From Alloacidobacterium dinghuense (lineage in GTDB: Bacteria; Acidobacteriota; Terriglobia; Terriglobales; Acidobacteriaceae), in NCBI RefSeq assembly GCF_014274465.1, contig NZ_CP060394.1, positions 2,604,001 to 2,668,000 of the forward strand: a stretch of DNA of 64,000 nucleotides. The letters are read 5' to 3'. Below are positions 39,936 through 50,261 of this stretch, in pieces (the first letter of the stretch is position 1; each line of letters begins with the position of its first letter). Below the pieces are notes generated by a model. It had not been told where the DNA came from, searched no databases, and worked only from the letters and a program-made list of their open reading frames with translations. The position numbers and the translations under genes were made by a program.

Positions 39936-41936
39936 ATGGCCGAACAGGAAAAGCCGAAAACCGGGGTCCCCGACACGCGCGGTTCTCGCGTGGTGGGGCA
40001 AAAACAAGCTCAGCAGCAGGAAGACGAAGTCGTCGGCAAAGCATACGACGGTCGTCTGATGCGCCGCCTCATCCGATACTTGTATCCCTACAAGCTGCCT
40101 GCATTTATCTCTCTTGCCGCAATCCTCATCAAGGCCGGCTCTGACGTTCTCGGTCCATATCTCACCAAAGTCGCCGTCGATCGCTACATGACCGCCCAGG
40201 TAGCGGCCAAACCCTCATGGCTCGCGCGCCATCTTAGTCCAAACGCATTCACCGGCATCAGCCAGCTCGCCGGCCTGTATCTCGCCTCGCTCGTGCTGAG
40301 CTATTTCCTCGAATTCGTCCAGACGTACCTGATGCAATGGACCGGCCAGAAAGTTATGTTCGACATGCGCAGTCAGATCTTCCGCCATCTGCAGCACATG
40401 CACATCGGCTATTTCGACCGCAATCCTGTCGGACGCCTGGTTACGCGACTCACCAGCGACGTCGACGCATTGAACGAGATGTTCACCTCCGGCGTCTTCG
40501 CTATCTTTGAAGACGTCTTCGTGCTGGCCGGAATCGTCATCGTCATGCTGCGCATGAGCTGGTGGCTGGCTTTGCTCTCGTTTGCCGTCCTGCCATTCAT
40601 CCTGCTGGTCACGCGACTCTTCCGCAAACATGTGCGCGATTCCTACCGCCGCATTCGATCTGCGATTGCCCGGATTAACTCCTACACGCAGGAACACGTC
40701 AGCGGCATGACAGTCGTGCAACTCTTCAATCGCCAGGAACGCTCTTTCAAAGAATTTAAGGCGGTCAACCAGCAGCACATGGACGCCTTCAAAGACGCGA
40801 TCATGGCCTATGCACTCTACTATCCGGCAGTCGAAGTCCTAAGCTCCATTGCCATCGCCCTGGTCATCTGGCGCGGAGGATATGGTGTCCTCCATACAAC
40901 CGTTACACTCGGCGTTCTCGTCGCCTTCATGCAGTACGCGCAACGCTTCTTCCGCCCCATTCAGGACCTGAGCGAGAAATACAACATCCTCCAAGCCGCG
41001 ATGGCCGCAAGCGAGCGCATTTTCAAGCTGCTTGATACGACCCCGGAGATTGTCCGTCCCGCTCACCCGAAAGAAGGCGACAACTCAGGCCGAATCGAAT
41101 TCCGCAACGTCTGGTTCACCTATCAGCGACTTGATGAAGCCCAGAAAGACCGCATCCACCACGCCAATGCTACCGAGTTGGCCGCGATGGATGACATCGA
41201 ATGGATCCTGCGCGGTGTCTCCTTTGCCGTTGAACCCGACCAGACCGCGGCCATCGTCGGCCACACGGGAGCAGGAAAGACAACCATCATCAGCCTGATG
41301 ATGCGGTTCTACGATATCCAGCACGGCAGCATCCTGGTCGATGGCGTCGATGTGCGCGAGCACGACCTCACCAAGCTCCGCCAGCGCTTCGGTGTCGTTC
41401 TGCAGGACCCATTTCTCTTTTCCGGGACCATTGCCGACAACATCCGCCTGGGCTCGCAGTGGATTTCAGACGAACGCCTCGAAGAAGCGGCCGACGAAGT
41501 CAACGTCCGCGACTTCATCCATTCGCTGCCTGAGGGTTTTGCCGAACCTGTGCGCGAACGCGGGAATGGACTGTCGACGGGCCAGAAGCAGCTCATTAAC
41601 TTCGCCCGCGCTTTGGCGCACGACCCAAGAATCCTCATCCTCGACGAAGCCACATCGAGCGTAGACACAGAAACCGAAATGCGCGTTCGCCTTGCCCTTG
41701 AGCACATGATCGAAGGCCGAACCTCTGTCGTCATCGCTCACAGGCTCTCGACTGTTCAGCGCGCGGACGTCATCCTCGTCATGCATAAAGGACAATTGCG
41801 CGAGGCGGGCACACACCAGGAGTTGCTCACGCAACGCGGAATCTACTGGAAGCTCTATCAGCTCCAATACAAGGATCAGGAACTGCCGGAATCTTTCCCC
41901 ACACTCAATCCAAGCCTTGCCGTCGGGACCGACTAA
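39936..41936 (+). CDS. ABC exporter half-transporter (MsbA/MdlB-like), 666 aa
   Basis: A membrane-ATPase fusion. The transmembrane domain spans about 45-370 with the FDMRSQIFRHLQHMHIGYFDRNPVGRLVTRLTSDVD block of type I exporters. The nucleotide-binding domain follows with Walker A GHTGAGKTT, signature LSTGQKQLINFARAL (a Thr in place of the usual second Gly), Walker B ILILDEATSSVD and the switch His in VVIAHRLSTVQ. Unusually, about 27 extra residues (RLDEAQKDRIHHANATELAA) lie between FRNVWFTYQ and WILRGVSF. AGGAG precedes ATG 39936. It is followed 6 nt later by lpxB, which suggests export of lipid A or a related lipid; that is inference. Confidence 0.9.
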   Translation: MAEQEKPKTGVPDTRGSRVVGQKQAQQQEDEVVGKAYDGRLMRRLIRYLYPYKLPAFISLAAILIKAGSDVLGPYLTKVAVDRYMTAQVAAKPSWLARHLSPNAFTGISQLAGLYLASLVLSYFLEFVQTYLMQWTGQKVMFDMRSQIFRHLQHMHIGYFDRNPVGRLVTRLTSDVDALNEMFTSGVFAIFEDVFVLAGIVIVMLRMSWWLALLSFAVLPFILLVTRLFRKHVRDSYRRIRSAIARINSYTQEHVSGMTVVQLFNRQERSFKEFKAVNQQHMDAFKDAIMAYALYYPAVEVLSSIAIALVIWRGGYGVLHTTVTLGVLVAFMQYAQRFFRPIQDLSEKYNILQAAMAASERIFKLLDTTPEIVRPAHPKEGDNSGRIEFRNVWFTYQRLDEAQKDRIHHANATELAAMDDIEWILRGVSFAVEPDQTAAIVGHTGAGKTTIISLMMRFYDIQHGSILVDGVDVREHDLTKLRQRFGVVLQDPFLFSGTIADNIRLGSQWISDERLEEAADEVNVRDFIHSLPEGFAEPVRERGNGLSTGQKQLINFARALAHDPRILILDEATSSVDTETEMRVRLALEHMIEGRTSVVIAHRLSTVQRADVILVMHKGQLREAGTHQELLTQRGIYWKLYQLQYKDQELPESFPTLNPSLAVGTD

Positions 41937-41942
41937 CCGCGC

Positions 41943-43115
41943 ATGGCTCCAGCCTCCGATCAGCCCAAAATCTTCATCTCTACAGGCGAAGCCAGCGGAG
42001 AACATTACGCCGCACAGCTCATCCCGGCAATCCGCAAGCTGGCCCCGAACGCCGAATTCTTCGGTCTTGGAGGCCAGCGCATGGAAGCGCTGGGCTTCCG
42101 CCGCATCGTCCGCGCCGAAGATGTCGCGGTCATGGGGATCACCGAAATCATCCAGCACATTCCGCGAATCTACGGCGAATATCGCAAGCTCAAGGTCAGC
42201 ATTGCGAAGGAGCGGCCCGACGCCGCGATTCTGATCGACTTCCCCGACGTGAATCTCTCGCTTGCCCGCACCCTGCACAAGCTCGGCGTCCCGGTCATCT
42301 ATTTCGTCAGCCCGCAGCTCTGGGCGTGGAAGAAGTACCGCATCCACAAGGTAAGACGCTTCGTGGACCGGATGCTCGTCATCTTCCCCTTCGAACAGTC
42401 GTTTTACCGCGAGCATGGGGTCAACGCTAGGTTTGTCGGCCACCCGCTTGCCGAAGTGCCCCTGCCTTCCATCTCACGAAAAGACTTTGCTGACCAATAC
42501 AGTCTCGACCCGTCCAAATCATGGGTGGGTCTGCTGCCTGGCAGCCGCTTCAAGGAGGTTCGCCTCAACCTTCCGGAAATGATCGAAGCCGCCAGTCAAC
42601 TGCAGGAACCACTCGAATTCCTCGTACCGCTCGCCCCCACGCTGACGCCGGAACATGTCGCCCACGTCCGCACTATGCTTCCCGCCGACGGGCTGCCCGC
42701 CGGCGGCCCACGCATCACGCTGGTCGAAGATGCCCGCGCCACGCTGCATCATGCGCGCGCCAGTGTCGTGGCCAGCGGCACGGCCACAGTCGAGGCCGCT
42801 CTCATCGGCAATCCCTTCATCGTCGTCTACCGTGTTTCTCAGTTGACGTATTCTGTTGCCAAGCGGGTTGTGAAGGTCCCGCATGTGGCTATGGTCAATC
42901 TCATTGCCGGACGCGAAGTGGTTCCAGAACTGATCCAGAGTGACTTTACGGCGGGAAACGTCGCCTCACACTTGCAGAACTTGCTGCACAATGAACGGGC
43001 CCGCGCCAAAATGCATGCGGATCTGGCACAGGTGAGCGCAACTCTGCATGCGGATAAGAGTCCCATTGAGCAAGTGGCCAGCATCACAGTAGAGTTAATG
43101 GGTCCAGCACGATGA
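41943..43115 (+). CDS. lpxB: Lipid-A-disaccharide synthase, 390 aa
   Basis: Condenses UDP-diacylglucosamine with lipid X to make the lipid A disaccharide; peripheral inner-membrane GT19 enzyme. Marks: IFISTGEASGEHYAAQLIPAI, FFGLGGQRMEALGF, VMGITEIIQHIPRI, LIDFPDVNLSLARTLHKLG, YFVSPQLWAWKKYRI and FVGHPLAE. It implies a Gram-negative outer membrane. It sits between an MsbA-like exporter and a secreted peptidase-like gene, which it overlaps by 4 nt (ATGA). Confidence 0.96.
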   Translation: MAPASDQPKIFISTGEASGEHYAAQLIPAIRKLAPNAEFFGLGGQRMEALGFRRIVRAEDVAVMGITEIIQHIPRIYGEYRKLKVSIAKERPDAAILIDFPDVNLSLARTLHKLGVPVIYFVSPQLWAWKKYRIHKVRRFVDRMLVIFPFEQSFYREHGVNARFVGHPLAEVPLPSISRKDFADQYSLDPSKSWVGLLPGSRFKEVRLNLPEMIEAASQLQEPLEFLVPLAPTLTPEHVAHVRTMLPADGLPAGGPRITLVEDARATLHHARASVVASGTATVEAALIGNPFIVVYRVSQLTYSVAKRVVKVPHVAMVNLIAGREVVPELIQSDFTAGNVASHLQNLLHNERARAKMHADLAQVSATLHADKSPIEQVASITVELMGPAR

Positions 43116-45097
43116 AGATAAGAATGATGAAGCACTGCAGTACTTTTCGCCCTGGAGCTTCTTTCTGGGGAGCAGTTCTGTTGTTGACGGCCGCTGCTTC
43201 AGCATCTGCCCAGCAAAAGCAGACGATCAACATCACCGGCTACACCATCAATGCCCAGTTGAGCCCCTCCGATCACAAGCTCTCCGCTACGGCACAGGTC
43301 ACTTTCACTGCGCTCGACAACACTGATACTGCGATCTTCGAACTGCACGGCGCGCTCAAGGTCGAGAAGGTTACGACGACGTCCAACCTGCCGCTCAGCG
43401 GCGAGCGCGGTCCCAATGCCACAGTCATCGTCACGCCAACGACTCCGCTGGTCAAAGGGCAGCAGTACACCTACATTTTTACCTATGACGGCATGCTCGA
43501 CGGCGATGCCGGCAGCCCGGTTGAAGGGCTGAAGCTGGCACAGGTCGGCGACCCAACGAGCTACCTGCTCTACGCTGGCCGCTGGTTCCCGATGGTTGGC
43601 TACATGACCGATCGCTTTACCGCCGACATTCACGTCACGCTTCCCGCGGGCTATCGCGTGATCGGGAGTGGCCCCACGACATCTGCGCCCGGCGCTGGCG
43701 GCGAACAGCATAACTTCCATTGGAGCAAGCCCGGATTCCCCGGAACGATCATCGCCGGCAAGTTTGACGCGCCTGTGTCTCCCGCGTCGAATATCCATGT
43801 CTACGCCATGGAAGATAAGAAACAATCCGCGCAGGATTATGGCCAGACTGCGTTGCGCGAGTTTGCCTTCTTCACCAGCACTTTCGGCGTGCCTGAATCC
43901 ACGCAGTTGAATGTCGTGGAGTTGCCCAACGACACGGTTCCCGCGGCCTGGGCGCCGGAAATCGCCGCAATCGCAGGCTCGCGCATCGGCAACAAGAACG
44001 ACTTCCGGCTCCTTTCCAATACGATTGCCCATCAATGGTGGGGCAGCGAGATCAGCCCCGCAACCCTGAATGACGCCTGGATCACCAACGGCATGTCGCG
44101 CTACGGCGAGCTCATGTACCTGGAAGACACAGCTGGCCGCAGCGCCATGAATGCAGCCATTCTGGACGTCTCCTCTGGCGCTCTTGCATATGACACAATT
44201 CCGCTCACCAGCGCAGGCCGGCTCGACGCCTTTTCGCCACAATTCCAATCCATGACCCTTGAGAAAGGCGGGCTGGTCTATCACATGTTGCGCTGGGAAG
44301 TAGGCAATGACAGCTTCTCGAAGATTCTCCGCGCAACGCTTTCGCAATTCACCGACAAATCGATCAGGACGAGCGACTTCGAAAAGCTCGCCGAGGCGCA
44401 GTCGCAACAGCAGCTCACACCGTTCTTCGCGCAATGGCTCGACGGCACTGGCGCACCGCAATTCAACAACAAATACGCCGTCTACCGCCTCGGCAACAAC
44501 AAGGGATTCCGAACGATCGGGGAAATTCAGCAGGATCTCGACCTCTTCAACATGCCGGTCGAGCTGCGCATCGAGACGGACGGCAAAACCGAGATCCGCC
44601 GCGTCGACGTCGTCGGCTCCGACTCGCAATTCGTCGTCGATACCTTCGGGCGTCCACGCCACATCACCATCGACCCCGACAACTGGATCCTGAAAAACTC
44701 GCCTGACATGCAGGTGCGCATCCACATCCTGCGCGGACAGCAGCTCGTGGCCCAGGGAGACACGACTGGGGGTCTCGCAGAGTATCAGAATGCGCTCAAG
44801 GCCAATCCGAACAGCTCGCTGGCAAGCTACCGTATCGGCGAAGTGCTCTTTACCATGCGCAACTACCAGGCAGCGATCAACTCCTATCGCGACGCGCTAC
44901 GCGGCGATGATGATCCCAAGTGGACCGAAGTATGGAGCCACATTCAGATCGGCAAGATCTTCGACGTGACCGGTCAGCGCGAACGCGCCGTGCCCGAATA
45001 CCGCCAGGCGCTGCAGACCAACGACAACACACAGGGCGCGCTCAACGAAGCCCGCAAGTACCTGCAGACGCCGTACAAGCGCGAGGAAAACGAGTAA
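43112..45097 (+). CDS. M1-peptidase homologue with degenerate zinc site and C-terminal TPRs, 661 aa
   Basis: An exported protein (signal region FWGAVLLLTAAASASAQQ) built like an M1 aminopeptidase: beta-rich N-terminal domain, catalytic-like domain, then TPR-like repeats (about 555-655, LAEYQNALKANPNSSLASYRIG and AINSYRDALRG). In M1 enzymes the site is HExxH-x18-E. Here the matching segment is NTIAHQWWG: Asn303 and Thr304 replace His-Glu, His307 is kept, and Asn326 (WITNGMS) replaces the distal Glu at exactly the right spacing. The fold is kept but zinc binding and catalysis should be lost. A scaffold or binding role is inference. It is coupled to lpxB by ATGA. Confidence 0.85.
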   Translation: MKIRMMKHCSTFRPGASFWGAVLLLTAAASASAQQKQTINITGYTINAQLSPSDHKLSATAQVTFTALDNTDTAIFELHGALKVEKVTTTSNLPLSGERGPNATVIVTPTTPLVKGQQYTYIFTYDGMLDGDAGSPVEGLKLAQVGDPTSYLLYAGRWFPMVGYMTDRFTADIHVTLPAGYRVIGSGPTTSAPGAGGEQHNFHWSKPGFPGTIIAGKFDAPVSPASNIHVYAMEDKKQSAQDYGQTALREFAFFTSTFGVPESTQLNVVELPNDTVPAAWAPEIAAIAGSRIGNKNDFRLLSNTIAHQWWGSEISPATLNDAWITNGMSRYGELMYLEDTAGRSAMNAAILDVSSGALAYDTIPLTSAGRLDAFSPQFQSMTLEKGGLVYHMLRWEVGNDSFSKILRATLSQFTDKSIRTSDFEKLAEAQSQQQLTPFFAQWLDGTGAPQFNNKYAVYRLGNNKGFRTIGEIQQDLDLFNMPVELRIETDGKTEIRRVDVVGSDSQFVVDTFGRPRHITIDPDNWILKNSPDMQVRIHILRGQQLVAQGDTTGGLAEYQNALKANPNSSLASYRIGEVLFTMRNYQAAINSYRDALRGDDDPKWTEVWSHIQIGKIFDVTGQRERAVPEYRQALQTNDNTQGALNEARKYLQTPYKREENE

Positions 45098-45232: not shown

Positions 45233-46369
45233 ATGACTCCCATAATATCTTCCGCCGAGGTTCTTGGACCGTACATCATGGAGCGCAGATACACTAATGC
45301 CGCTTTCAACCGGGCAGGGGACTTCATCGCGAGCAGAGGCGATGAATGGCTACAACTAATCAAGACTGATTTCCAGTCATGGAACGCACGTTTTAGCAAA
45401 GAGTTCGGCATCATGGCAGAGTGGCGCAATCTTCATGCCATGCCTTTAAAAGCTGTATCCGCGTTGCTGTCTTCTGAGGCTACTAACATTGACGGAGCAC
45501 CTATTGTGGTTGAGCGGCTGAAGCGTTATCTATCAATTCGCTCAAAGTTGCAGAGATTTCCCGTTACGAACCTGACAACGATACAGGATATTGCGGGATG
45601 CCGCGCTGTCGTTCAGGATGTGCGTCACGCATATGAATTGAGAGACCGCATTGTGCAGCGTTTTGGCTCTCGATCTGATGGACCGCAGATTGTCCCGAAG
45701 TGGTGCAGGGACTATATCGCGGAACCTAAGCCCGATGGTTATAGGTCCATTCATGAGGTCGCTAAATTTTACAGCCTAGATCCATCGGTTTCTCATTGCA
45801 ACGATCTCAGGGTAGAGATTCAGATTCGGTCGCGAATGCAGCATGCGTGGGCTATGGCGGTCGAGACCGCTTCTGCGGTAACTAACCAAGCATTGAAATC
45901 CGGAGACGGTGAAGCACTTTGGAAAAGGTTCTTCTTCCTTGTTGCCGAGATCATGGCCTTCAATGAGGGGACCCAGAACGTCTTTGCAAACAAAGAGGAG
46001 CATTTCAATGCACGTCGCGAAGCTTCTGGACTTGCTACGCAATTGCGTGTCGTAAATCTCCTGAGTGGCATGCAGCACGTTCTAGAGAGCTACTCTACTT
46101 TTGAGGGTAAAGGGGGCAATGACCTATACCTGCTTGAATTGCATGCACAAAATAGAGAAATCGGATATATGGGTTATGGAAAAGAAGACTTTAAGAAAGC
46201 ATCGGAAGAATATGCGGAAAAAGAGCAGGCGAACCGCAACAACGAGGACATTCACATCGTCCTGGTTACTGCGGAATCTCTTAGCGATTTGAAGAGCGCA
46301 TATCCTAGCTTTTTCTTGAATAGCGTTGGTTTTATTGACCTTATCAACGAGCAGGTCTTTGGCTCCTGA
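45233..46369 (+). CDS. RelA/SpoT-domain nucleotidyltransferase (putative toxSAS-type effector), 378 aa
   Basis: The single enzymatic domain (about 85-215) is a RelA/SpoT synthetase without the HD hydrolase, TGS or ACT regions of long RSH proteins. Synthetase residues look intact: Asp119 in TIQDIAGCRAVV, the G-loop KPDGYRSIHEV with Tyr170 and His174, and Glu195 in RVEIQIRSRMQHAWA. An N-terminal helical region and a roughly 160-residue C-terminal region of unknown type surround it. Family members make (p)ppGpp or (p)ppApp, or pyrophosphorylate tRNA as toxins; which applies is not visible. AGGGAG sits 6 nt before ATG 45233. Codon use is more A+T-rich than in neighbours, fitting transfer as transposon cargo. 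Confidence 0.85.
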   Translation: MTPIISSAEVLGPYIMERRYTNAAFNRAGDFIASRGDEWLQLIKTDFQSWNARFSKEFGIMAEWRNLHAMPLKAVSALLSSEATNIDGAPIVVERLKRYLSIRSKLQRFPVTNLTTIQDIAGCRAVVQDVRHAYELRDRIVQRFGSRSDGPQIVPKWCRDYIAEPKPDGYRSIHEVAKFYSLDPSVSHCNDLRVEIQIRSRMQHAWAMAVETASAVTNQALKSGDGEALWKRFFFLVAEIMAFNEGTQNVFANKEEHFNARREASGLATQLRVVNLLSGMQHVLESYSTFEGKGGNDLYLLELHAQNREIGYMGYGKEDFKKASEEYAEKEQANRNNEDIHIVLVTAESLSDLKSAYPSFFLNSVGFIDLINEQVFGS

Positions 46370-46389: not shown

Positions 46390-46557
46390 ATGAAGCCGCC
46401 ACCGAAGAACGTTGAGTTTGAGCGATTCACTGAAGCTATGCGGGGCATCATGAAGGTGTCGAAGGCGGATCTTCAAAGGCGTATAGAGACAGAAAAGCGG
46501 AAGCCTAAAGCCTCCGCTTCCCGCGCTTCTGGCGCTTCAACCAAACAGGAAGATTAG
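46390..46557 (+). CDS. Small helical ORF behind the RelA/SpoT gene, possible antitoxin or partner, 55 aa
   Basis: Starts at ATG 46390, 20 nt after the RelA/SpoT stop; an in-frame GTG at 46372, 2 nt after that stop, is an alternative. The protein reads as one amphipathic helical block (NVEFERFTEAMRGIMKVSKA, then DLQRRIETEKRK) with a Ser/Ala/Lys tail. I recall similar short proteins (F-x-x-A-M-x-x-I-M-x-V-S-K) as unnamed genes in many bacteria. Its position directly behind a stand-alone synthetase suggests a partner such as an antitoxin, but nothing in the sequence proves it. Its TAG overlaps the transposase stop. Confidence 0.6.
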   Translation: MKPPPKNVEFERFTEAMRGIMKVSKADLQRRIETEKRKPKASASRASGASTKQED

Positions 46558-47525
46558 AAGCTCGTTTCTCCCACCTTGCCAGTCAGTTCTGCATAGGTAA
46601 GGCGCTTGCCTGCTATCTGCGATACTGCCAGCATGAAGCGGTCGGTATCATCCAGCGGATTGTCTTTGGTAGCGCGGTTGTTGAACCTGAAAACCTGCTC
46701 GTCCACGTAGCGATCAAGATGAAATGGTTCTACGGCAACGTAAGTGCCACGCAGACCGCGCTTCAATAGGCTCCAGAAGTTCTCGATGCCCTGAGTGTGA
46801 ACCTGTCCGCGAACATATTCTTCTACGTGGTTCACAGTCTCGTGAACGTATTCTTGAGCGGCTAAATTGTCATATCCGGTGTAGCGGTCGGTATAGACCT
46901 TGGAGCCTTTTTCAATCTGATTCAGAATCTCGTTCTGCAAAGTCTCGCGCTTCACATTGGGTACAACCTTGGCGCGAACCTGACGGCTCTCGCGATCAAG
47001 CATGCCGAAGACTACAGGCTTCTGGTATCCCTCTTTGGCGAGCCTAGTACGCTTGCCAGCATGCATCTTGCGAGTGTTCGGACCAAAATGAGTCTCATCT
47101 ACTTCGATAGCGCCATTACCGCCGATCTTCTCCCATGAAGTGTTCTTGAGCGCCAAACGGATGCGATGAAGCATGAACCATGCAGACTTCTGAGTGACCT
47201 TCAAATCCCGCATCAGTTCATAGCTACTGATGCCGTTCTTGCAGTTCACAACCAGCCATACAGCAGTGAGCCATTTATCAAGAGTGATTGGAGAATCTTC
47301 AAAGACGCTGCCAGTTTTCACGCTAAACTGCTTGTGACAATCCTTCGCCATGCATTTCCAGATGCGGCGGGAACTTAGGTAAGAGACGCGCTGACCATCG
47401 CAGTGAGGACAGGTCACTCCATCGGGCCAGCGCATCGAAGCAACAAAGTCCACGCACACATCGGGATCGGCGAAATAGCGGATTGCTTCAAGCATGCTTT
47501 TAGGGAATTTGTCGTCAATCTGCAT
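46554..47525 (-). CDS. IS1595-family (ISXO2-like) transposase, 323 aa
   Basis: Catalyses transposition of the element. The N-terminal zinc ribbon has CPHCDGQRVSYLSSRRIWKC then CHKQF. An HTH region follows (ISSYELMRDLKVTQKSAWFMLHRIR). The catalytic domain has Asp in AIEVDETHFG, Asp in KVYTDRYTGY and the third acidic/Asn position in TQGIENFWSLLKRGLRG, the family hallmark. Length is full, with no frameshift or stop, so it should be functional. ATG 47525 has no ribosome site and lies 6 nt from a -10 box, suggesting leaderless translation. Confidence 0.95.
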   Translation of the reverse strand: MQIDDKFPKSMLEAIRYFADPDVCVDFVASMRWPDGVTCPHCDGQRVSYLSSRRIWKCMAKDCHKQFSVKTGSVFEDSPITLDKWLTAVWLVVNCKNGISSYELMRDLKVTQKSAWFMLHRIRLALKNTSWEKIGGNGAIEVDETHFGPNTRKMHAGKRTRLAKEGYQKPVVFGMLDRESRQVRAKVVPNVKRETLQNEILNQIEKGSKVYTDRYTGYDNLAAQEYVHETVNHVEEYVRGQVHTQGIENFWSLLKRGLRGTYVAVEPFHLDRYVDEQVFRFNNRATKDNPLDDTDRFMLAVSQIAGKRLTYAELTGKVGETSF

Positions 47526-47852: not shown

Positions 47853-50261
47853 TCAATTTCCAATCGGCAGACTGATCTCCTGTTTACCCGGATGCAGCTG
47901 ATATTCCTGGCCATTCCACACCAACTTGCCGCTAAGTTCTCCTGGCAGCGTGATTGTGGCCACCCACTCTTTCGCGTTCCGGCGATAAGCGGTTGCGATA
48001 TTGCCGTCGCCGTGGGGCATTGAGGCCTCAATTTCATGCAACGCGCCGAGATGCGGCTCGATTCTTACTTGAGAAAAGCCAGGGGCGCCCGGATGAATCC
48101 CTGCCACGACGGTTAGCAGGTCGTAATTTGGATGGGCGCTCCACGCATGGCAGTCAGAGCGCGTCGGTTCCGGCTGCTCGGCCCAGGTTGACAGTCCGAG
48201 CTTCAGCATGTCGTACCACGGCTTCAACTGGCTGACATACAAGTCAGCCATCCCGGCATGTTCCAGCGCCCGGGCCAGGTAAAAGCGGAAGTAGTAGCTC
48301 ATCGCCGACATGGGCGGAACTGCCTTGCCATGGGCCTGCGTCTCTCTGCCTTCCTGCGAAGCAAGAACGCGCTGCAGAATCGCCTTCTGCTCTGCGCGCG
48401 GAGCAACATCCTGCCACACAGCCAACACGTTTGCCTGCTGGCTGTAGCTCTTCTTCGCCGGAGTGTCTGCATACACCCCCTGCTCGGCATCCCAGTTCAG
48501 ACGGTTCAAAGCTGCGGATGATTTCTCAATCGTTTTCCGATAGACCGCCGCCCGTTCCTTGCTCCCGTACTCCTGCTCAAGCTCGGCCGCATCGCGCAGA
48601 GCCTCAATGAACTGCGCGGTGAGAAATGTCGAGCCGCCATCGGCTTCCTGCGGCGGGTCTCCACCCTGATAGCCGCTCGTCCAGTCGCCGAACTCCCACC
48701 ACTTCACGCGGCCCATCAGACCATCGTCGCGTAGGTGCAACGCATACCAATCGATCACGCCACGCGTGCGCGGCAGCGTTTCACGCACCAGGGCCTCGTC
48801 GTTCACGTACATCCAGTAGTCGTGCAGCATGTCCACCCAGAGCAGTGAGAACGGCGGGATGAACTGCGGCAGGCGCGATGGATAACGGCTCTGCGTAAGC
48901 CCTTCGGGAATAATGGACGATTGAATGTTCGTGATGGCCTGTTTGCCAAGCCGGCTATCACCGGAAACGGCATAGGAGATGAGGGCTTGGATGCGCGTGT
49001 CGCCAACATACTGCAACTGCTCCCAGTAGGGAGCGTCCATGTACGTCTCATGCGCGCAAAGGCGTGCCGTGCGCCAACCTGTGTCCCAGAGCTTTTTCAA
49101 GTCGGGAATGTCTCCGGTGATGCTGGCTCTTTCGACAAATGGATACGCATTGAACCACCCATCGAGTTTTTCCAGTTTCAATGGAGCTGATTTTGTCGTC
49201 ACATCCACCTGCAGATAGCGCCATGTGCGCCACCACAGCGGTTGAAATGCGCGCTGGTCGGTGCCATCACTGATGAATATGTCCGACACACCCTCGATAT
49301 GCCGCCCTTCTATCTCGTTGCGATTGCCCTTCTCTCCCTTCGCGTCATAAAGGGCCTCGGCATAGGTCAGGCGAATCTCCGCATCTCGTCCGCCACTCAC
49401 CGTCAGTTCAGGATAGGCACTCTGCAACACTTGGTTGTCGAACAGCAGTGTCGCGTGTGTATTCGCCGGAATCTCCAGCACGCCCTGAGGATTAGAGATA
49501 ATGCCCGACACTCCATTCATGCGGACGATACGGCCTGCCATCGTCGGTCGATGCTCCATCGCCGGAAGCTGGTCCTGAACCAGTTCCCAGTTGTTGTCGG
49601 CATCCTGCGCCTCGCGCGTTGCAGCTTCTCCAATCGCTTCGGCCGCATGCCATGCGGCAGTATCGGAGACCGCGGGTGCATCCCAATCCCACGTAACCAT
49701 GCGGCCATCCACGGTCTCACCGGGACCAGCAGCGTAATATCCAGCGACCCCGTTCGTCGCAGCCAAGCCGCGACCTTTCTCCTGCTTCACTTGCCATGAA
49801 GCATCCGTGTTCGCGACTTCTTCCGCAGACGTATCGCCCTGCAAGAGGAAGCCGGTGCGATTTGTCATCTGCGCAATCGGGGCGCGCGTGCCGAAATTCC
49901 ATACCGTCGCCGCAAGAACGTTCTTGCCTGGCTTCAACATCGGAGCGAGATCGATTGTCTCGAAGCGCCAGTGAAAGAGATCGCCGCGCGCCGGGCCTTC
50001 ACCCGCGTATTGCCCGTTCACATGCAGCAGGAAGCGATTGTCGGCGCTCACGTGCACCCAGAAATGCTCCGGGGCCATCGCGAACGTAAGTTCTTTTCGG
50101 AAGTAGAAAATGCCGACGTCCTTCTGTGGAGCATCCGGACACGTGATCCAATGCGCATGCCACTTGCTTTCGACCAAAGCAGGATTGAGAGGCTTTGCTT
50201 CCTGCGCCGCCATGGCTGCGGCAGAAAAGAGCACCACTGCGAACAGAAGTACGCGAGACAT
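47853..50261 (-). CDS. Exported GH78 alpha-L-rhamnosidase-like protein, 802 aa
   Basis: A secreted or periplasmic glycosidase. After a signal peptide (SRVLLFAVVLFSAAAMAAQ) comes an N-terminal galactose-binding-like domain (WHAHWITCPDAPQKDVGIFYFRKEL, WVHVSADNRFLLHVNGQ). The (alpha/alpha)6 barrel has AHETYMDAPYWEQLQYVGDTRIQALISYAVSGD, which carries the acidic pattern of GH78, WWEFGDWT and RSDCHAWSAHPNYDLL, and a C-terminal beta domain ends the chain. The motifs match family GH78 well. The substrate is probably a rhamnosyl-containing plant glycoside or polysaccharide. It ends next to the transposon region. Confidence 0.88.
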   Translation of the reverse strand: MSRVLLFAVVLFSAAAMAAQEAKPLNPALVESKWHAHWITCPDAPQKDVGIFYFRKELTFAMAPEHFWVHVSADNRFLLHVNGQYAGEGPARGDLFHWRFETIDLAPMLKPGKNVLAATVWNFGTRAPIAQMTNRTGFLLQGDTSAEEVANTDASWQVKQEKGRGLAATNGVAGYYAAGPGETVDGRMVTWDWDAPAVSDTAAWHAAEAIGEAATREAQDADNNWELVQDQLPAMEHRPTMAGRIVRMNGVSGIISNPQGVLEIPANTHATLLFDNQVLQSAYPELTVSGGRDAEIRLTYAEALYDAKGEKGNRNEIEGRHIEGVSDIFISDGTDQRAFQPLWWRTWRYLQVDVTTKSAPLKLEKLDGWFNAYPFVERASITGDIPDLKKLWDTGWRTARLCAHETYMDAPYWEQLQYVGDTRIQALISYAVSGDSRLGKQAITNIQSSIIPEGLTQSRYPSRLPQFIPPFSLLWVDMLHDYWMYVNDEALVRETLPRTRGVIDWYALHLRDDGLMGRVKWWEFGDWTSGYQGGDPPQEADGGSTFLTAQFIEALRDAAELEQEYGSKERAAVYRKTIEKSSAALNRLNWDAEQGVYADTPAKKSYSQQANVLAVWQDVAPRAEQKAILQRVLASQEGRETQAHGKAVPPMSAMSYYFRFYLARALEHAGMADLYVSQLKPWYDMLKLGLSTWAEQPEPTRSDCHAWSAHPNYDLLTVVAGIHPGAPGFSQVRIEPHLGALHEIEASMPHGDGNIATAYRRNAKEWVATITLPGELSGKLVWNGQEYQLHPGKQEISLPIGN

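Follow-up and report, generated by a model that had tools for sequence, protein, structure and literature searches.

The window, that is the whole stretch of 64,000 nucleotides from Alloacidobacterium dinghuense that was analysed, carries directly behind lpxB a gene for a protein which combines the fold of the M1 metallopeptidases with C-terminal TPRs. The original prediction had placed this reading frame at 43112–45097 and had proposed that it is coupled to lpxB by ATGA. Both could be confirmed, as lpxB extends from 41943 to 43115 and ends at this overlap. The features of the locus are as follows:

39936–41936, plus strand: ABC exporter of the MsbA type, upstream of lpxB (MsbA_lipidA is the best NCBIfam match, scoring 430.9 under a cut-off of 602)
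41943–43115, plus strand: lpxB, lipid-A-disaccharide synthase (TIGR00215, 274.3 bits vs a cut-off of 190.25)
43112–43115, plus strand: ATGA, stop of lpxB overlapping the start of the pseudopeptidase gene (sequence)
43112–45097, plus strand: M1-fold pseudopeptidase with C-terminal TPRs, ATG start, 661 aa (Pfam, AlphaFold2 model, structure matches)
43112–43210, plus strand: probable signal peptide, residues 1–33 (boundary between ASA and QQ placed by eye; no lipobox seen)
44018–44032, plus strand: NTIAH, residues 303–307, at the position of HExxH (sequence and alignment)
44087–44089, plus strand: Asn326, at the position of the distal zinc ligand Glu (sequence and alignment)
44492–44701, plus strand: beta domain III, residues 461–530, strongly conserved (column entropy, model)
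44717–45079, plus strand: TPR region, residues 536–656, most conserved part of the family (Pfam, alignment, entropy)

The M1 fold had been predicted before, and the profile match, the structural model and the structure matches agree with it. The protein matches PF01433 (Peptidase_M1) with 50.6 bits at a cut-off of 27.7 (residues 305–442 on profile positions 75–218), and over residues 536–642 several TPR models (TPR_2, TPR_16, TPR_11 and others) score above the Pfam cut-off. The AlphaFold2 model of residues 36–661, calculated from an alignment of 95 sequences including the window's own, has a mean pLDDT of 94.7 and a pTM of 0.91. Its best structural matches are M1 enzymes, with LTA4 hydrolase (3fui) at Z 34.2 (414 aligned residues, rmsd 3.1, 16% identity) and ERAP1, IRAP and aminopeptidase N at Z of about 32–33. 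With these metallopeptidases and the Deinococcus M1 enzyme 6ifg the modelled protein shares the N-terminal, the catalytic and the beta domain fold (Z 32–34 over about 400–550 residues), and QWWG-like letters after the active helix are common to both. In contrast to the enzymes, the window protein has neither HExxH-x18-E nor a GxMEN-type sequence, carries Leu383 in place of a Tyr and has the TPRs at its C-terminus in addition. Thus, by profile and predicted structure the protein is of the M1 fold, yet judged by the letters of its site it is not an M1 peptidase.

The zinc site in the window's family and in the phylum

Residues N303, T304, H307 and N326 fall exactly on HExxH-x18-E, within NTIAH-QWWG...ITNG and with 18 residues between H307 and N326, so that the site positions named in the original prediction (Asn303, Thr304, Asn326, His307, the QWWG and the conserved spacing) are all found in the window sequence. 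We compared the site with a close set of 96 sequences scoring above 640 bits, which comprises the coded family f1 with the window's own copy, named Acidobacteriaceae and two unplaced MAGs. HExxH is present in none of these 96 sequences, the own copy included. The letters at positions 303, 304, 307 and 326 are NTHN in 51 sequences, NTRN in 14, NTHD in 13, NAHD in 7 and others in 11. Asn303 is present in 94 and Thr304 in 84 of the 96; position 307 is His in 79 and Arg in 17, and position 326 is Asn in 67 and Asp in 25. As Asn303 is kept in 94 of 96 sequences and HExxH is found in none, chance is ruled out as the source of the window's site letters.

Other parts of the M1 active site differ as well. 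GxMEN is the motif of the M1 exopeptidases; the window protein reads PAAWAPEI at this position and the paralogues L188–L190 read SGGMEAAS or SGGMESAS. Leu383 stands where we presume, from our own alignment and general knowledge of the family, the M1 catalytic Tyr before the [DE]KG motif, and among the close sequences this position is Leu in 56, Thr in 25 and Tyr in 9. The same genome provides a control: five of its six other M1 matches retain, as judged by eye, HExxH and the downstream Glu, and the sixth (L247) reads HGMAH. Since the general-base Glu and two of the three zinc ligands have given way to other residues, and since relatives often have Arg for the one His that is left, the function of a zinc peptidase appears to be gone, and these comparisons strongly support that the window protein's family is non-catalytic as a zinc peptidase.

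The genome searches spanned the phylum Acidobacteriota. At E<=1e-30 the gene is found in 190 of 200 genomes of the window's own family (the window's genome included). At E<=1e-10 there are matches in 393 of 399 genomes of the class and in 240 of 297 genomes of the phylum sample, a threshold which in the latter also takes in other M1 proteins; among the phylum matches listed, most rows at about 1e-25 to 1e-32 stop near query residue 525–535, before the TPRs. Outside the class about 66 genomes, counted by hand, have a best E of <1e-40. Named relatives are found in Acidobacterium sp. S8 (86%), Silvibacterium and Terriglobus, and a contig scan with the single protein, which reaches close relatives, returned 24 loci, all from Acidobacteria or genera of that group.

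From these searches a phylum table of 209 rows was compiled (33 coded families plus named records; 96 rows belong to the window's family and at least three rows repeat one gene). The zinc site is complete in six rows (L123, L132, L194, L210, L236 and L238), namely three of ten in f5, two of three in f10 and the one row of f11, and these six members may be active judging from their site. It is incomplete in 203 of the 209 rows, where loss means loss of the canonical set, as HEHD, HEHN and HEQE may still bind metal. Several lineages hold letters of their own: DEQY in f2 (7/7 rows, five genes), NQRN in f6 (18/21), QEQH in f8 (5/6), RRYD in f41 (3/5) and REYQ in f34 (5/5), f83 (3/3), f73, f90 and part of f23 and f45. 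Other families are mixed, with 11 sets of letters in the 12 rows of f7 and four sets in the four rows of f13.

Homologues with an intact site as the rule would have spoken for a recent loss; they are the exception, at none of the 96 close sequences and six of the 209 phylum rows. Whether the same substitutions are fixed among homologues, as the original prediction had asked, has a divided answer: inside the window's own family they largely are (Asn303 and Thr304), and other families carry other letters. The retention of His307 does not really hold, given Arg in 17 of the 96 close sequences and His in only 97 of the 209 phylum rows.

Probable repeated loss of the site, and the conserved C-terminus

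All trees were built without the site columns. The careful tree comprises 97 rows, with four M1 paralogues whose sites are complete (L187–L190) as the outgroup; in L188, the one outgroup paralogue scanned, no Pfam TPR was found. If regain is excluded, 13 losses are counted on this tree; in the 200 bootstrap trees evaluated out of 1000 the count is 10–15, or 10–14 for HExxH alone. Unordered parsimony, which allows regain, yields 7 changes on 131 rows and 6 on 97 rows. In the quick tree complete and incomplete sites are sisters inside f5 (L194 with L205, and L236 with L235) at SH-aLRT values of 99–100, and with the same support L132 and L210 group with L135 in f10 and L123 (f11) with L124 (f3). 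A single ancestral loss, i.e. a tree with all complete-site rows and the outgroup on one side, was rejected (AU p 2.2e-8), whereby the tested group was picked after the first tree had been seen, the model was LG+G4 with no mixture, and the pattern could in principle include regains.

The site is also complete in two distant proteins, L183 and L185, whose TPR matches stay below the Pfam cut-offs and beside which we saw no lpxB. L185 forms a long branch of unsure place which falls into the ingroup in the quick tree and was omitted from the 97-row tree, and L183 scored too low for either. These two proteins, unplaced in the tree as they are, hint at an active, TPR-bearing ancestor.

The constraint on the protein is distributed unevenly. 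Over 95 sequences the mean column entropy is 2.29 bits in the N-terminal domain, 2.13 in the catalytic domain, 1.70 in domain III and 1.50 in the TPR region, and the site columns 303, 304, 307 and 326 reach 2.36–2.62 bits. W604, G614, D618, R623 and Y630 of the TPR region are invariant in 208 of 208 rows with letters. Judged by this alignment, the conserved core of the family is the C-terminus, not the active site. The original prediction regarded the TPRs as added; we see no sign of a lineage-specific addition, as the other members of the family have an alignable TPR region, and both full-site members scanned (L236 and L132) have Pfam TPRs.

Against the five relatives L009–L013 the dN/dS of the mature protein is 0.062, 0.057, 0.079, 0.103 and 0.078, with a dS above 1, near saturation, wherever it is defined (in 3 of 20 domain-wise comparisons it is undefined); in the comparison with L009 the value is 0.015 for domain III and 0.029 for the TPR region. 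These ratios indicate strong purifying selection on the gene. The two marks of a pseudopeptidase, a conserved absence of the catalytic residues and purifying selection, are thus both found, and the non-enzymatic role foreseen in the original prediction appears well supported, the site being incomplete almost everywhere and dN/dS lying at 0.057–0.103. In addition, the protein is probably exported and periplasmic: of the 207 rows in which the N-terminus is long enough, 201 have a hydrophobic 12-mer ahead of the mature start, lipobox-like strings are seen in 14 rows, and inspection of the window protein revealed no second hydrophobic anchor.

The pairing with lpxB

The coupling to lpxB turned out to be stronger than the window alone could tell. 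Among the 196 loci that extend far enough to be scored (ten further loci are too short), 174 have a homologue of lpxB upstream and in the same orientation, and these include all six complete-site members. In the linked loci 34 to 705 bases separate the lpxB stop from the codon aligned with residue 38, and when the start codon closest to the end of lpxB is taken, 36 of the 174 have the –4 overlap. The unlinked loci are all five of f4, all 14 counted loci of the clade f23/f34/f45/f73/f82/f83/f90, one of two f30 loci and two f1 loci, one of which (L087) is in a genome, G029, where another copy sits behind lpxB.

When genomes with exceptions to the pair and genomes without the gene were checked, lpxB was found in 17 of 18, and in 12 of 12 from f4 and the clade just named. 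In G078 (95% complete) lpxB was not found, and the pseudopeptidase gene has no match at E<=1e-30. G012 and G116 of the window's family have lpxB, and the pseudopeptidase gene is found neither beside it nor elsewhere at E<=1e-10. As these two genomes carry lpxB alone, the gene is not strictly needed with lpxB, and the tie is strong, not absolute.

A larger conserved operon was considered and rejected. In 20 longer loci the cluster of the gene itself occurs in 18 and that of lpxB in 16, and the next clusters reach 6, 5 and 4. L287 and L289 share five upstream genes, L280 and L281, which are from one family, share several, and three of the 20 (f5, f7, f9) resemble the window in having an MsbA-like ABC exporter upstream. 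The linkage was counted apart from this set because greedy ORF picking had missed the gene or lpxB there (L275, L282, L283, L290).

A putative role in the cell envelope

The gene order suggests a link of the protein to lipid A or the outer membrane. As to its molecular role, we infer a docking, scaffolding or chaperone factor. The nearest working analogue would be BepA of E. coli, an M48 gluzincin whose C-terminal TPR cups the peptidase domain and which contacts BAM and LptD; beside proteolysis a chaperone-like role on LptD assembly is described in passages of PMC7950410 and PMC8423444. The likeness lies in a periplasmic metallopeptidase-fold domain with a C-terminal TPR, which for the window protein is a prediction. 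The difference is that BepA, an M48 protein, carries an unaltered HExxH and is a protease of LptD and BamA, whereas the window protein is of the M1 type; in fact the 18 Pfam families which the window protein matches at E<=1 do not include PF01435 (M48), which places the window protein outside the BepA family, and the C-terminal TPR that marks BepA is detected by Pfam. According to a passage of PMC8423444, the protease-dead BepA E137Q has a weakened, only partial effect in LptD maturation. This analogue is therefore not simply independent of its activity.

We suggest that the window protein acts in the periplasm without catalysis, as a TPR scaffold or chaperone in outer-membrane or LPS assembly which works like BepA without being one, a proposal to which we give an even chance. 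Co-production with LpxB would let the level of the protein track the output of lipid A. Domain III and the TPR would form the conserved working surface. The TPR would dock onto a machine of the envelope, and the former substrate cleft may still hold an extended peptide or an immature outer-membrane protein. The process served would be outer-membrane assembly or LPS export.

The pairing with lpxB could also do no more than secure constitutive expression, the role (e.g., that of a general periplasmic peptide-binding chaperone) being unrelated to LPS. The f4 loci and the REYQ clade, which split the pair yet retain the gene and, in the 12 genomes checked, lpxB, fit such a reading, which we hold to be unlikely since the pair persists in 20 loci from many families while most neighbours differ. 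Rather improbable is also a sensor or regulator whose pseudo-cleft detects peptide, LPS or lipid A as its ligand in the periplasm and adjusts the synthesis of lipid A, as pseudoenzymes regulate pathways elsewhere: the gene is encoded with LpxB, and NTHN, NQRN, DEQY and REYQ are held within lineages as if the pocket were still constrained, but the pocket letters vary between families while the TPR parts are constant, and a direct link between a protein that looks exported and the cytoplasmic LpxB is not evident. That the remodelled pocket forms a zinc-free hydrolase or another enzyme is very doubtful; Asn303 and Thr304, so frequent in the window's family, could be catalytic or structural, but across the phylum the four site columns vary (about 2.4–2.6 bits) and no common new catalytic set emerges. 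Finally, an ordinary M1 peptidase which recently lost its site in this strain and is becoming a pseudogene would account for the letters missing in the window copy and is refuted by the lack of any intact copy among the 96 close sequences, by the dN/dS values and by the presence of the gene in 190 of the 200 genomes searched in the family.

Returning to the non-catalytic scaffold, there may be a parallel for an M1-derived domain in a structural role. TAF2/TAF150 of TFIID is a eukaryotic transcription factor, not a secreted protein, and we take its M1-like domain to be inactive. A passage of PMC1199594 mentions the aminopeptidase domain. The reuse of metallopeptidase folds for binding is described for ADAM, M14 and further pseudoenzymes in parts of PMC11266112, in the searched text of which the terms "M1 family", "family M1" and "TAF2" have no match. 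The lpx gene clusters are described in PMC3087551, in passages that mention no such partner. In open-licence PMC, by titles and abstract openings, we found no literature on the family or on the M1–lpxB pair. Pseudopeptidases as such are known; an M1 family that is spread over a phylum and paired with lpxB and that, as it appears from our comparisons, has lost its site repeatedly, we did not find described.

Taken as a whole, our tentative view, held with somewhat less than even confidence, is that the protein is an undescribed envelope-biogenesis factor of the Acidobacteriota which forms a two-gene unit with lpxB and has the TPR scaffold as its conserved working part. The M1 activity would have become dispensable early, and some ten or more independent losses of the site would have followed, with different residues taking its place each time and then being kept.

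To our knowledge, pseudoenzymes are usually met as single losses. Here one family across much of a phylum seems to lose the same site repeatedly, and the rest of the protein and mostly the link to lpxB stay. It would be a natural experiment on the way from peptidase to scaffold, for which one coded family, f5, contains both complete and broken sites. In the literature searched we found little on envelope assembly in Acidobacteriota, and the gene offers a specific candidate for outer-membrane biogenesis that can be knocked out. The mostly lpxB-adjacent relatives across this phylum of soil bacteria suggest that the Acidobacteriota may employ an overlooked non-enzymatic helper in building their outer membrane.

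Genes downstream of the pseudopeptidase

Two genes sit between the gene of the pseudopeptidase, the M1-fold protein encoded directly behind lpxB, and the gene at 47853–50261 of the window:

45233–46369, protein with a RelA/SpoT-type synthetase domain (YjbM-like, match below cut-off)
46554–47525, transposase-like gene, named by eye

The 47853–50261 gene has a homologue behind the pseudopeptidase gene in the relatives L008, L009, and L011, where a synthetase gene was not found. Thus, the synthetase and transposase-like pair may be a recent insertion in the window.

Further M1-like proteins

Two M1 proteins of other Acidobacteriota (L183 and L185) both have the complete zinc site, their TPR matches are weak and under the Pfam cut-offs, and no lpxB neighbour was seen at either locus. 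They are possibly active early branches of the pseudopeptidase's family.

The organism's own genome encodes a further M1-like protein (L247, a 664-aa frame around G000:C1:1154526-1154879), whose PF01433 match is slightly under the cut-off (24.9 vs 27.7 bits) and in which the Pfam scan found no TPR. Its motif reads HGMAH...WLNEG with glycine in place of the general-base glutamate, and it is possibly another M1 pseudopeptidase.

Genome G029 has two copies of the pseudopeptidase gene: L087, which is unlinked, and L254, which is linked to lpxB.

Zinc sites within family f5

In the 10 compared loci of the coded family f5 (L127, L194, L202, L203, L205, and L234–L238) lpxB precedes the gene in every case. 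The residues corresponding to positions 303/304/307/326 read HEHE, TEHE, HEHN, HEHD, HERQ, HERD, or LERD. As complete and broken sites thus coexist in one family, these sequences suggest that loss of the zinc site may still be under way in f5.
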